From an uncultured Erythrobacter sp. (GTDB lineage Bacteria; Pseudomonadota; Alphaproteobacteria; Sphingomonadales; Sphingomonadaceae): a stretch of 64,000 nucleotides of DNA. The first letter of the stretch is position 1. Every line of letters starts with the position of its first letter. The notes beneath the pieces were generated by a model. The model was not told where the DNA came from. It saw nothing but the letters and a program-made list of their open reading frames with translations, and searched no databases. Position numbers and translations under genes: made by a program. Shown one piece after another: positions 24,370 to 27,832 of the stretch. The stretch covers positions 440,001 to 504,000 of the forward strand of contig CANKYK010000002.1 of assembly GCA_947488155.1 (NCBI GenBank). Reading direction: 5' to 3'.

Positions 24370-25491
24370 ATGAAGATCGCTGTTCTTAAGGAGCAAGCCG
24401 CCGGTGAAACGCGTGTTGCCGCGACACCGGAAACAGTCAAAAAGTTCATTGGCTTAGGCAACGAAGTGGCGATCGAAAGCGGGGCGGGACTGCACGCGTC
24501 CATCACGGACGAGGCGTTTGCAGAAGCCGGCGCCAGTGTCGGCAGTGCGGCTGCTACCATAAAAGATGCGGACATCGTTCTGGGCATTCAAGCGCCCGAT
24601 GTAAAAGCGCTTAAAGGCGCGAAAGGCGGCGCATGGGTCGCGGCCCTGTTTGATCCGTTCAGCGATAAAGCGCGGGTAGAGGCCTATGCGAGCGCGGGGC
24701 TCGAGGCGCTGAGCATGGAGTTCATGCCGCGCATCACCCGCGCGCAGAGCATGGATGTGCTCTCCAGCCAATCGAACCTGTCCGGCTATAAGGCGGTGCT
24801 GGCTGCGGCGGACACCTATGGCCGCGCTTTTCCCATGATGATGACGGCCGCTGGTACGGTTCAAGCCGCGAAAGCTTTCGTAATGGGCGTCGGCGTTGCT
24901 GGCCTCCAAGCGATTGCCACCGCGCGGCGGCTGGGCGCCCAAGTTTCCGCGACCGACGTCAGATCCGCTACCAAGGAACAGATCGAAAGCCTTGGCGCAA
25001 AAGCGATTTTTGTTGAGGATGTGGCTGGAATTGAGGGCGAAGGCTCGGGCGGATACGCTACGGAAATGAGCGATGAGTATAAGGCGGCTCAGGCCAAGCT
25101 TGTCTCAGAGCACATCGCGAAACAGGACATTGTCATCACCACCGCGCTGATCCCCGGACGCGCTGCGCCGGTGCTGATCACCGATGCGCAAATCGCGACG
25201 ATGAAGCCGGGCAGCGTGATCTTCGACCTTGCAGTGGCGCAAGTCGGCAATGTCGAGGGCTCCAAGCCCGATGAGACGGTTGAGAAGCACGGCGTCAAAA
25301 TCATCGGCTATGCCAACACGCCCGCGCAATTGCCCGCCGATGCCTCGGCCCTGTTTGCGCGCAACCACTTCAACTTCCTAAGCGCGTTCTGGGACAAGGA
25401 AGCGGGCAAGCCCGAACTCGACGAAGAGATCGGCGATGCGATCCGCCTGACGCGGGGCGGCAAGGTGGTGAACGAGAGGCTGAAGGGTTGA
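24370..25491 (+). CDS. pntAA: NAD(P) transhydrogenase subunit alpha part 1
   Basis: A 373-residue NAD(H)-binding domain I of proton-translocating transhydrogenase, which moves hydride from NADH to NADP+ at the expense of the proton gradient. It begins MKIAVLKEQAAGETRVAATPE and contains the RAQSMDVLSSQSNLSGYKAV segment and the nucleotide fold with GVGVAGLQAIATARRLGA. Domain I, part of domain II (pntAB) and the rest (pntB) are separate proteins, as in Rhodospirillum rubrum. Normally pntAB follows closely; here a DUF559 gene with terminal repeats intervenes. Confidence 0.93.
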   Translation: MKIAVLKEQAAGETRVAATPETVKKFIGLGNEVAIESGAGLHASITDEAFAEAGASVGSAAATIKDADIVLGIQAPDVKALKGAKGGAWVAALFDPFSDKARVEAYASAGLEALSMEFMPRITRAQSMDVLSSQSNLSGYKAVLAAADTYGRAFPMMMTAAGTVQAAKAFVMGVGVAGLQAIATARRLGAQVSATDVRSATKEQIESLGAKAIFVEDVAGIEGEGSGGYATEMSDEYKAAQAKLVSEHIAKQDIVITTALIPGRAAPVLITDAQIATMKPGSVIFDLAVAQVGNVEGSKPDETVEKHGVKIIGYANTPAQLPADASALFARNHFNFLSAFWDKEAGKPELDEEIGDAIRLTRGGKVVNERLKG

Positions 25492-25958
25492 GTTTGAGCA
25501 TCCCAAATCCTCCCCGCTACGGGGAGGGGGACCGCGCGCAGCGCGGTGGAGGGGGCGCGCGGTTCGTCGCCAGACCGGAAGTCATGCGCGCCCGTGAACT
25601 CCGAAAAAAGATGACGATGCCCGAACGTATGCTGTGGCAGCGCCTTCGCGCTCGTCCACAGGGCTTCAAGTTCCGCAGACAGCATCCGATAGGCCCATAT
25701 GTCGCTGATTTCTGCTGCATGTCCGAAAAGCTGGTCGTCGAAGTCGATGGCAGCACACACGATTCACTTGATCGCGCCAAGTTTGACGACAGGCGTATCG
25801 CATTCATGAAAGAAAACGGGTTCAGGGTTTTGCGGGTGGCTGCGCGCCGCGTGTTGGCGGATGCCGATGCGACCGCAGAGGCAATCGTCGCGCGTGCGGC
25901 GGGTCCCCTCCACCAGCCTGCGGCTGGTCCCCCTCCCCGTGCCGGGGAGGTTACATAG
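25488..25958 (+). CDS. DUF559 endonuclease-like protein inserted in the pnt operon
   Basis: Up to 156 residues. The core from about residue 33 (MRARELRKKMTMPERMLWQRLRA) is DUF559, a small nuclease-fold domain related to Vsr/restriction endonucleases; the catalytic-type residues are in GPYVADFCC and LVVEVDGSTHD (D...ExD), followed by FRVLRVAARRVL. The TTG at 25488 overlaps the pntAA stop, but the ATG at 25584 may be the true start. Both ends of the frame run through 46-base inverted double-hairpin repeats, giving the low-complexity termini PPRYGEGDRAQRGGGG and QPAAGPPPRAGEV. It is probably an insertion that became translationally embedded in the operon. Confidence 0.8.
   Translation: MSLSIPNPPRYGEGDRAQRGGGGARFVARPEVMRARELRKKMTMPERMLWQRLRARPQGFKFRRQHPIGPYVADFCCMSEKLVVEVDGSTHDSLDRAKFDDRRIAFMKENGFRVLRVAARRVLADADATAEAIVARAAGPLHQPAAGPPPRAGEVT
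25509..25554 (+). repeat. Left double-hairpin repeat of the DUF559 module
   Basis: Hairpin A: CCTCCCCG, loop CTA, CGGGGAGG. Hairpin B: ACCGCGC, loop GCA, GCGCGGT. Then GGAGGGG. It matches the inverse of 25905-25950 at 38 of 46 positions; all eight differences are in the hairpin A loop or are paired changes in the hairpin B stem. Confidence 0.85.
25905..25950 (-). repeat. Right double-hairpin repeat of the DUF559 module
   Basis: Inverted relative to the left copy. Read on the minus strand: CCTCCCCG, GCA, CGGGGAGG, then ACCAGCC, GCA, GGCTGGT, then GGAGGGG. Its inner edge encodes the tail of the DUF559 protein, and its outer GGGGAGG (25944-25950) is the only Shine-Dalgarno-like sequence before pntAB, 11 bases from the ATG, so the repeat may have supplied that gene's ribosome site. 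Confidence 0.85.
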
Positions 25959-25961
25959 CCA

Positions 25962-26243
25962 ATGGACTTTATCTCAATCCTATCGATTTTCGTACTGGCC
26001 TGTTTCGTAGGCTATTACGTTGTCTGGTCGGTCACCCCGGCGCTGCACACGCCGCTGATGGCGGTGACCAATGCGATCTCCTCGGTGATCATCGTCGGCG
26101 CGCTGATCGCGGCGGCTGAGGCGGGCAGTCCTACGGCGAAATATCTCGGCCTGTTCGGCGTTGTGCTGGCTAGTATCAACATCTTCGGCGGCTTTGCCGT
26201 GACGGAGCGAATGCTCGCCATGTACAAGAAGAAGGAGAAGTAA
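25962..26243 (+). CDS. pntAB: NAD(P) transhydrogenase subunit alpha part 2
   Basis: A 93-residue membrane subunit with three hydrophobic helices (about residues 5-27, 32-51 and 59-78) and a lysine-rich tail MYKKKEK. The segment LGLFGVVLASINIFGGFAVTERML is strongly typical of PntAB. It forms part of the proton channel with PntB. It begins four bases after the DUF559 stop; the preceding GGGGAGG belongs to the repeat. Its stop is followed after two bases by the pntB start, whose ribosome site AAGGAG lies in this gene's last codons. Confidence 0.92.
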   Translation: MDFISILSIFVLACFVGYYVVWSVTPALHTPLMAVTNAISSVIIVGALIAAAEAGSPTAKYLGLFGVVLASINIFGGFAVTERMLAMYKKKEK

Positions 26244-26245
26244 GG

Positions 26246-27832
26246 ATGTACACTTCAACTCCTTTTTCGTCATTGCGAGGCGACGCAGTCGCTGCGGCAA
26301 TCCATCACCTGCTCTTACGGCTTTTCGGTCGGTCGATGGATCGCTTCGTCACTTCGCTCCTCGCGATGACGATGTTCTTTTCTGCGACCCCGGCGCACGC
26401 GGCCACAGGCGACACCGGAACTCCCGCATGGGCGATGCTCGCCTATCTTATCTCCGGCGTGTTCTTCATCCTCGCATTGCGCGGGCTTTCCTCGCCGGCG
26501 ACCAGCCGCGCGGGCAACCGTTATGGCATGCTCGGCATGTTGATCGCCGTGGTCACCACTTTGGTGACGCACAGCATCGCGACCCTGCCAGAGATCGGCA
26601 TTGCGATGTTCCTGGGCGGGATTGTCGGCGTCACCGTCGCTCGCAAAATCGCCATGACGGCGATGCCAGAACTGGTCGCGGGTTTTCACTCGCTGGTCGG
26701 TTTGACCGCCGTTGTCGTGGGCCTCGCCGCATGGCTAGACCCGGCAAGTTTCGGGATCACGGACGCCGCCGGGCAAATCCTGGTCGTCAGCCGGATTGAG
26801 CTGGGCCTGGGCATCGCGATTGGTGCGATCACCTTCTCCGGCTCGGTCATAGCCTTCCTCAAACTGTCTGGCCGGATGAGTGGATCGCCGATCATGCTGC
26901 CCGGGCGGCACGTGATCAATCTCGGCACTTTGGCCGCGATCCTTGGCCTGATTGCCTATTACGCGATGTCGACCGAGGCTGGCGCCGGCGAAGGGCAGTT
27001 GATCCTCGCCGTCACGATCCTCGCCTTCATCATCGGCTTCCTGCTGATCATCCCAATCGGCGGCGCGGACATGCCGGTCGTCGTTTCCATGCTGAACAGC
27101 TATTCCGGCTGGGCGGCGGCGGCGATGGGCTTCACATTGGGCAACACGGCGATGATCATCACCGGCGCTTTGGTTGGCTCGTCCGGCGCAATCCTTAGCT
27201 ACATCATGTGCAAGGCCATGAACCGCAGCTTCATCAGCGTGATCGCGGGCGGCTTTGGCGCGGACAGCTCAGGCGGCGGCGATGGTGAGGCGCGCGAGCA
27301 GCGCCCCTATAAGCAAGGCAGCGCAGACGACGCGGCCTTCATGCTGGAGCAGGCGGAAAAGGTCATCATCATTCCTGGTTACGGCATGGCGGTGGCTCAG
27401 GCACAGCACGTGCTGCGCGAGATGGCCGACACGCTCAAGGAAAAGGGCGTCGAGGTGAAATACGCCATCCACCCGGTTGCCGGGCGGATGCCGGGGCACA
27501 TGAATGTGCTGCTGGCCGAGGCGAACGTCCCCTATGATGAAGTGTTCGAACTGGAAGACATCAATAGCGAATTTGCGCAGGCCGATGTCGCCTTCATCAT
27601 CGGGGCGAATGATGTGGTGAATCCGGCGGCGAAGACGGACAAGAGTTCACCGATCTATGGCATGCCTGTGTTTGACGTCGACAAGGCGAAGCAGGTGTTC
27701 TTCATCAAGCGGAGCATGGGCGGGGTCGGTTATGCCGGGGTCGACAATGATGTATTCTATATGGATCAGACGATGATGCTGCTCAGCGACGCGAAGAAGA
27801 TGGTCGAAGAGATCGTGAAGGCGCTGGACTAG
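26246..27832 (+). CDS. pntB: NAD(P) transhydrogenase subunit beta with palindrome-encoded N terminus
   Basis: A 528-residue subunit. The conserved protein starts only near residue 60 (AWAMLAYLISGVFFILALRGLSSPATSRAGNRYGM) with eight or more helices, followed by the NADP(H)-binding domain III from about 350 (IIPGYGMAVAQAQHVLREMAD, RMPGHMNVLLAEANVPYDEV, INSEFAQADV). Typical PntB proteins are about 460-480 residues. The extra 50-60 residues are encoded largely by a palindromic repeat (26268-26371, residues 8-42). The upstream start is kept because AAGGAG precedes it and the internal ATG at 26336 has none. Residues 31-52 look like a signal peptide ending in PAHA. Confidence 0.92.
   Translation: MYTSTPFSSLRGDAVAAAIHHLLLRLFGRSMDRFVTSLLAMTMFFSATPAHAATGDTGTPAWAMLAYLISGVFFILALRGLSSPATSRAGNRYGMLGMLIAVVTTLVTHSIATLPEIGIAMFLGGIVGVTVARKIAMTAMPELVAGFHSLVGLTAVVVGLAAWLDPASFGITDAAGQILVVSRIELGLGIAIGAITFSGSVIAFLKLSGRMSGSPIMLPGRHVINLGTLAAILGLIAYYAMSTEAGAGEGQLILAVTILAFIIGFLLIIPIGGADMPVVVSMLNSYSGWAAAAMGFTLGNTAMIITGALVGSSGAILSYIMCKAMNRSFISVIAGGFGADSSGGGDGEAREQRPYKQGSADDAAFMLEQAEKVIIIPGYGMAVAQAQHVLREMADTLKEKGVEVKYAIHPVAGRMPGHMNVLLAEANVPYDEVFELEDINSEFAQADVAFIIGANDVVNPAAKTDKSSPIYGMPVFDVDKAKQVFFIKRSMGGVGYAGVDNDVFYMDQTMMLLSDAKKMVEEIVKALD
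26268..26371. repeat. Palindromic element inserted in frame in pntB
   Basis: Left arm 26268-26306 begins CGTCATTGCGAGG and ends GCAATCCATC; right arm 26335-26371 begins GATGGATCGC and ends CTCGCGATGACG. The arms are imperfect inverted repeats, best conserved at both ends. The whole 104 bases stay open in the pntB frame. The sequence type resembles the intergenic CGTCATTGCGAGG palindromes of many alphaproteobacteria, and its position inside a gene recalls Rickettsia palindromic elements. Confidence 0.8.

Follow-up and report, generated by a model that had tools for sequence, protein, structure and literature searches.

DUF559 nuclease genes between triplex-capable repeats: a candidate small insertion element of bacteria

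Introduction

What is a single nuclease gene doing between two genes of one operon, with the same inverted repeat at each of its ends? We present the case of an uncultured Erythrobacter sp., in which a DUF559 gene parts pntAA from pntAB within a window of 64,000 nts (positions 440,001 to 504,000 of contig CANKYK010000002.1; the window is the whole stretch of DNA analysed). A sequence-only reading of this DNA had proposed that the gene and its two flanking repeats make up a small mobile module, comparable in principle to REP/RAYT pairs. In REPIN/RAYT systems, a gene lies amid inverted palindromic repeats, the same genomes carry dispersed doublets of the repeats without the gene, and the sites are intergenic. 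A PD-(D/E)XK nuclease that works at the ends of a mobile element is also known, in TnsA of Tn7. Here we ask whether the arrangement in the window is general, what the repeats have in common, and which explanation fits them best.

Results

The locus in the window

The features of the interrupted operon are collected in Table 1. The frame found between the two pnt genes scores 109.5 bits with the PF04480 (DUF559) model, against a curated cut-off of 20.6, and DUF559 and MTES_1575 are the only Pfam matches within it. As the sequence-only reading had stated, the frame extends through both arms; its start is ambiguous, either the upstream TTG or an ATG at 25584.

Table 1. Coordinates of the features at the interrupted pnt operon, in window positions
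Feature	Coordinates	Strand	Basis and remarks
pntAA	24370-25491	+	Pfam PF01262/PF05222; upstream partner of the interrupted operon
DUF559 frame	25488-25958	+	156 codons counted from TTG; whole-genome search and Pfam
DUF559 domain	25584-25892	+	Pfam PF04480
pntAB	25962-26243	+	Pfam PF12769; downstream partner of the interrupted operon
Left arm	25509-25554	+	Hairpin A 25509-25527, hairpin B 25531-25547, third strand GGAGGGG 25548-25554
Right arm	25905-25950	-	Read on the minus strand: hairpin A 25950-25932, hairpin B 25928-25912, third strand 25911-25905
Third strand, left arm	25548-25554	+	Exact mirror of the G-arm GGGGAGG (25521-25527)
Third strand, right arm	25905-25911	-	Exact mirror of the right arm's own G-arm
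Outer end of right arm, CGGGGAGG	25943-25950	+	Likely ribosome site for pntAB (ATG 25962), as judged from the sequence

The two arms are convergent and 46 nts long each, and they differ at 8 positions, two in the loop of hairpin A and six in hairpin B, the latter making up three compensated pairs; on all these counts the earlier description was exact. The inverted repeat stretches to 52 nts at 81%. Both arms fold as DNA into two hairpins, with energies of -18 and -16 kcal/mol (z of -3.5 and -3.0), and for each arm one shuffle in 200 folds as well. Hairpin A is CCTCCCCG/CGGGGAGG, and we refer to the window arms as of the CCTCCCCG type. In the window genome, CCTCCCCGNNNCGGGGAGG, the exact pattern of hairpin A, is confined to two places, both of them the window arms, and the doublets without a gene that we describe below are seen in relatives. 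The terminal 7 nts of each arm (GGAGGGG) mirror the G-arm GGGGAGG, a feature absent from the earlier reading. On the outer side of the right arm, GGGGAGG lies 11 nts upstream of the pntAB ATG and is, as had been suggested, a likely ribosome site for pntAB.

By inspection, no T-run adjoins the window arms. Their outer bases end in AAAT and GTAA, with no GTAG/CGTC tag. Rfam reports nothing at gathering score across 25300-26100, and the window protein has no match up to an E-value of 0.01 amongst the PADLOC defence models. A second palindromic sequence that resembles a dispersed repeat (CGTCATTGCGAGG ... CCTCGCGATGACG) is visible by eye at 26259-26375, within the 5' end of the pntB frame, to which it gives an unusual N-terminal extension.

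The structural model of the window protein has a pLDDT of 87. A fold search with this model finds 3hrl, a DUF559-type structure from Neisseria (E-value 1.5e-5), the homing endonuclease I-Bth0305I (5.7e-5) and Vsr (1cw0, 0.015); a profile search finds 3hrl and I-Bth0305I again, the latter as 3r3p with an E-value of 2.2e-4. The DUF559 protein is thus predicted to be a PD-(D/E)XK nuclease with the Vsr/homing-endonuclease fold. The window nuclease domain resembles I-Bth0305I, an EDxHD homing endonuclease, both in fold and in profile; the window gene differs in that it lies between genes and not in an intron and is bounded by repeats, and genes of its kind have many different insertion sites. Despite the fold match to Vsr, the window protein falls under the cut-off of the vsr family (17.5 bits with TIGR00632, cut-off 97.85).

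Arms accompany DUF559 genes across bacteria

DUF559 matches are present in 102 of the 119 genomes of the window's family, weak and fused matches included, with up to 10 in one genome. We assembled 178 DUF559 loci: 31 from the family (the window and the best hits), 80 named loci from many phyla, 27 from a phylum sample and 40 from multi-copy genomes. One locus that appeared twice (L122, the same as L009) was counted once, and 175 loci have full flanks. An arm is here a pyrimidine-arm hairpin within 260 nts of the gene. Amongst these 175 loci, picked by protein score so that weak DUF559 hits are under-sampled, 135 have an arm on both sides, 37 on one side, and three (L073, L110 and L139) have none. 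An arm turns up in 3.4% of 1743 control windows taken from the same loci. The repeats are therefore far commoner near DUF559 genes than elsewhere, as the module proposal had predicted.

The inverted-repeat score between one arm and the other exceeds the maximum (31) of 215 same-locus controls in 30/31 family loci and in 60/79 named loci; it falls short in 19 of the named loci, and L103, whose score stems from runs of N, is scored as a miss. The observation in the window is correct and general, and the link of DUF559 with triplex-type repeats is well supported. The literal motif that the sequence-only reading had put forward does not generalise, because arm sequences vary. Amongst 33 family loci it is found exact on both sides only at the window locus (L003), with a few others matching partially at one or two mismatches; it describes one subtype and was rejected as a general rule.

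Ten extra, mostly lower-scoring loci are divided: arms are found at six (L300-L305), on both sides in three of these, and at none of the other four (L296-L299). The window genome has two more DUF559 relatives, L004 and the fused L005, at which we find no arms. The E-x-D-G motif is missing from the printed stretch of L004 and of L296-L299, and it is kept in the armless, fused L005. Relatives without E-x-D-G, being armless (L004, L296-L299), were discarded as carriers of the element. This variant (L004, L296, L297 and L298), present in several family genomes, may be a domesticated descendant.

The third strand mirrors the G-arm

The arms share a rule that stands out when sequences are compared: a C-arm, a G-arm, and then a strand that mirrors the G-arm, with A either kept or replaced by T, as a purine intrastrand triplex would need. 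It is established triplex chemistry that a purine-motif triplex needs a third strand in mirror order to the G-arm. A strand in this order is unable to base-pair with the C-arm, and to a protein that binds duplex DNA it is a different site.

The test set has 285 arms with a purine core of at least 7 nts, 241 of them asymmetric, and T is allowed for A. In the asymmetric arms, the tail fits its own G-arm better as a mirror than as a direct copy in 145 cases and worse in 19, and perfect tails number 142 for the mirror versus 30 for the direct copy. A tail that simply repeats the G-arm was rejected on this comparison. When each distinct core is taken once (66 cores), the mirror is better in 46 and the direct copy in 5. 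The observed mirror fit is 0.888, compared to a mean of 0.780 and a maximum of 0.791 when tails are dealt among loci. In the 196 arms where the mirror can be placed by G alone, A is faced by A in 217 cases, T in 159, C in 17 and G in 8, that is, mostly the A and T whose triads a purine triplex accepts. Placement of a direct copy by G alone is possible for 84 arms, and the bases facing A are then similarly distributed (A 99, T 53, G 16, C 9). Counted over 305 arms, 176 carry a perfect third strand solely on the gene side and 43 solely on the outer side; 5 have one on each side and 81 have none. The comparison of sequences is evidence that the arms have the capacity to form triplexes; formation in cells is a separate matter.

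Insertion between operon genes

We have looked at two operon junctions in relatives of the window genome. For the pnt operon, pntAB was matched in 56 of 61 genomes, and we took the best 30 matches, all from the window's genus and including the window. Two of these pntAA-pntAB junctions have a DUF559 gene and 12 are at most 5 nts long, two of which have the genes overlapping by 1 nt. These are the empty sites that the earlier reading had asked for, and the gene is thus not common to all pnt operons. The second DUF559-filled junction (G140) has a protein with 100/130 residues identical to the window protein and similar arms, and its element sits between pntAA and the gene that elsewhere (for instance L050 and L058) is directly 3' of pntAA. 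The junction (L036-L065) is also a hot spot of gain, with other sequence of 85 to 991 nts in the remaining 16 of the 30 genomes.

The second junction, which we label pdhC-lpd, lies between an E2 acyltransferase gene and a dihydrolipoamide-dehydrogenase-type gene as identified by Pfam, in another genus of the window's family. Thirty junctions (L266-L295) were taken from 40 genomes with a match: 10 have a DUF559 gene, 7 are empty, reading TAAC-ATG or TAAAC-ATG, and 13 have other sequence. The DUF559 insertions at this junction belong to two distinct element families, present in 3 and 7 genomes within the one genus. In one of the two families, the inserted end provides a ribosome-site-like GAAGGAG ahead of lpd.

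At these two hot spots together, arms at both ends are found in 11/12 of the DUF559 inserts and in 0/29 of the other inserts, three of which have an arm at one end. The arms therefore go with the gene and not with the site. By eye, we find no clear target duplication at either junction, at best an ATG, which selection for a start codon may explain. The neighbours of the insertions are varied (an E2 acyltransferase/lipoamide-dehydrogenase-type pair, trpA, dnaG and a 2-hydroxyacid dehydrogenase, from Pfam matches of six flanking proteins at four loci), and no common target sequence is seen among the sites. That the DUF559 gene and its arms form an insertion element is well supported.

Copy number, doublets, and the pairing of repeat and protein

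Across the 119 family genomes, the count of the motif correlates with the count of DUF559 genes (rho of 0.60, kinship ignored). All 42 genomes with at least 5 motif copies have a DUF559 match, and the 17 genomes without DUF559 hold 0-3 copies; the window genome itself has zero copies of the motif type counted across the family. In a sample of 150 genomes of the phylum, DUF559 above 50 bits is present in 17/22 genomes with at least 10 copies, compared to 14/128 of the others, again ignoring kinship; one of the 17 genes (in G266) is broken, and the five high-copy genomes without DUF559 are G195, G208, G225, G230 and G313.

Convergent doublets without the gene do exist in some relatives of the window genome, and there the REP/RAYT likeness holds in this respect. 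In G091 and G028, 100 motif copies form 17 neighbouring pairs closer than 150 bp, of which 16 are convergent and 60-90 bp apart, compared to two DUF559 pairs of the same motif type. Among the 30 copies that head the lists of these two genomes (15 from each), 20 have a convergent partner (23 less three poly-G artefacts), and one is by a DUF559 gene. The same pattern has no match in G081. The orientation can also be the reverse: all 8 listed doublets under 150 bp in G185 are divergent, as is one of two in G312. Amongst 11 listed repeat pairs 250-600 bp apart, examined by eye, 8 enclose a DUF559 gene (the broken one of G266 included), and the remaining three are another gene (G053), low-quality sequence (G028) and a same-strand pair beside a DUF559 gene (G286).

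The type of repeat and the protein are also paired. The two arms of a locus agree in type in 108/135 loci, against 29 expected by dealing. We compared each of 68 family loci with the locus of its closest protein from a different genome: the repeat types agree in 50 cases, against 18.7 in shuffles. When homologous sites are excluded the agreement is 36/68, while 500 shuffles have a mean of 18.6 and a maximum of 31. The agreement is lower for repeat types other than GGGAGAGG, only 14/36. In multi-copy genomes, the repeat type agrees with that of the nearest protein in 33/44 cases (21 after exclusion), versus 6.9 when the comparison is with DUF559 loci of the own genome. Repeat and nuclease travel together, and part of this agreement, as the drop from 50 to 36 of 68 indicates, is common descent in place.

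BoxC/PIT/TMECO repeats and E. coli ycjD

We found no link of DUF559 with repeats in the literature searched, where coverage of subscription papers and preprints is limited and a prior description is possible. The class of repeats is already known in E. coli as BoxC/PIT/TMECO. According to Holder et al. (PMC4666352), these repeats, described in the 1990s and unclear in origin, number 23 in E. coli K-12, where five inverted pairs occur, and 3610 across 262 proteobacterial genomes, and no mobility genes were found nearby.

By inspection, the C-arm, the G-arm and the mirrored purine third strand of BoxC/PIT/TMECO are also in the window arms, which differ in their sequence and in carrying a hairpin within loop 2. 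A further difference is that BoxC/PIT/TMECO was published as an orphan repeat without mobility genes, while here the repeats bound a DUF559 gene. The published consensus CCCTCNCCCN3-6GGGNGAGGGN3GGGNGAGGG is found on at least one side of 26/178 DUF559 loci, and a looser form in 58/178. The window genome has no match to this consensus, even with the looser pattern.

E. coli K-12 has a gene annotated as DUF559, ycjD (b1289), and TMECO number 9, with an intact motif, lies between fabI and ycjD, 168 nts from the latter. Visual inspection shows a degenerate arm that overlaps the 3' end of ycjD; at the 5' end we see none. PMC1189080 assigns YcjD to PD-(D/E)XK, and PMC12817139 reports ycjD from phylogroups A, B1 and C and from two sequence types, lineages that lack eefRABCD. 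We sampled 60 E. coli records spread along a ranking of 5411 and dropped one small record (H160). The 37 genomes with ycjD have 14-33 motif places (median 22), and the 22 without it have 2-19 (median 7.5), a contrast with a p-value of 9e-10 that ignores kinship and counts in ycjD's own place.

Discussion

What the window carries is probably one copy of a small, widespread insertion element, with DUF559 as its enzyme and a REP/RAYT-like way of working. The element would consist of a single DUF559 gene between two convergent triplex-capable repeats. The conserved unit of the repeat would be a C-arm hairpinned to a G-arm, followed by the mirror third strand, with an optional second hairpin between. 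We infer that the nuclease cuts at the repeat and moves the element: it would nick or cut at or near the repeat once this is extruded or single-stranded, and repair from this cut would copy or transfer into intergenic DNA whatever has a repeat at either end. On this view the doublets would travel as non-autonomous passengers, and BoxC/PIT/TMECO with ycjD in E. coli would be a surviving case. The element has in common with REPIN/RAYT the repeat-flanked gene, the gene-less doublets (in some relatives, with G185 showing the reverse orientation) and the intergenic sites. It differs in the enzyme, a predicted PD-(D/E)XK nuclease and not HUH-Y1, and in its ends, which are of triplex type with a mirror third strand and, in the window, lack the GTAG/CGTC tag that REP/RAYT palindromes have at one end. 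From TnsA of Tn7 it differs in having a single gene, with no DDE partner between the arms.

Other explanations have to be weighed against this one. The gene may be selfish in the manner of homing endonucleases, cutting empty intergenic sites, with the arms as structural ends that aid repair or protection and the doublets as deletions of the gene. That I-Bth0305I is the closest solved relative after 3hrl, by profile and by fold, and that the pnt and pdhC-lpd junctions are used recurrently both point this way; we regard it as possible and somewhat doubtful, given the diverse insertion sites without a common target sequence and the 16 convergent doublets versus two DUF559 pairs of one motif type in G091 and G028. 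Passive hitchhiking, in which GC-rich hairpins are hot spots of recombination or replication slippage and DUF559 is mere cargo caught between two of them, is unlikely: 8 of the 11 listed gene-sized repeat pairs enclose DUF559 and one another gene, none of the 29 other inserts at the shared hot spots has arms at both ends, and the repeat type tracks the protein. It would account for the repeat pair of G053 that encloses another gene (1116572-1117043) and for the hrpB-mrcB junction of E. coli (L244-L249), where a BoxC doublet occurs as full, collapsed-to-single-hairpin and empty alleles; BoxC sites in E. coli are prone to rearrangement, as PMC4666352 reports.

Two further readings are less likely still. 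One is mismatch repair of the Vsr kind on behalf of a solitary methyltransferase, as proposed for Caulobacter VsrA, with the repeats incidental. VsrA contains a DUF559 domain, and the SOS response of cells without ScmA depends on it (PMC12907096). For the window protein we find this improbable, as it scores far under the vsr cut-off, and up to 10 DUF559 matches per genome, most of those examined being flanked by arms, are more readily explained by an element than by a repair gene. Least credible, and in our view very improbable, is that the arms terminate transcription in both directions or regulate the inserted gene as RNA. They are indeed strong hairpins adjoining genes; no T-run accompanies them in the window, and Rfam has no match across the locus. 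PMC4666352 cites earlier work in which PIT elements had neither promoter nor terminator activity, and states that RNA is unable to form purine-motif triplexes; the arms nevertheless keep to the mirror rule.

Beyond the window, we lean slightly towards a wider reading of the element, in which DUF559 proteins are the enzymes of a bacteria-wide mobile class with intrastrand-triplex ends, YcjD is the missing partner of BoxC/PIT, and the doublets are REPIN-like satellites. If so, an orphan class of repeats, BoxC/PIT/TMECO, would gain a candidate enzyme and DUF559 a candidate role, and the origin of the BoxC/PIT repeats would become directly testable in E. coli K-12 with ycjD. If the element reading is true, the mirror rule would be comparative evidence for selection on triplex-capable DNA in bacteria, and the REP/RAYT way of life would have been invented twice and independently, here with a nuclease of unrelated fold.
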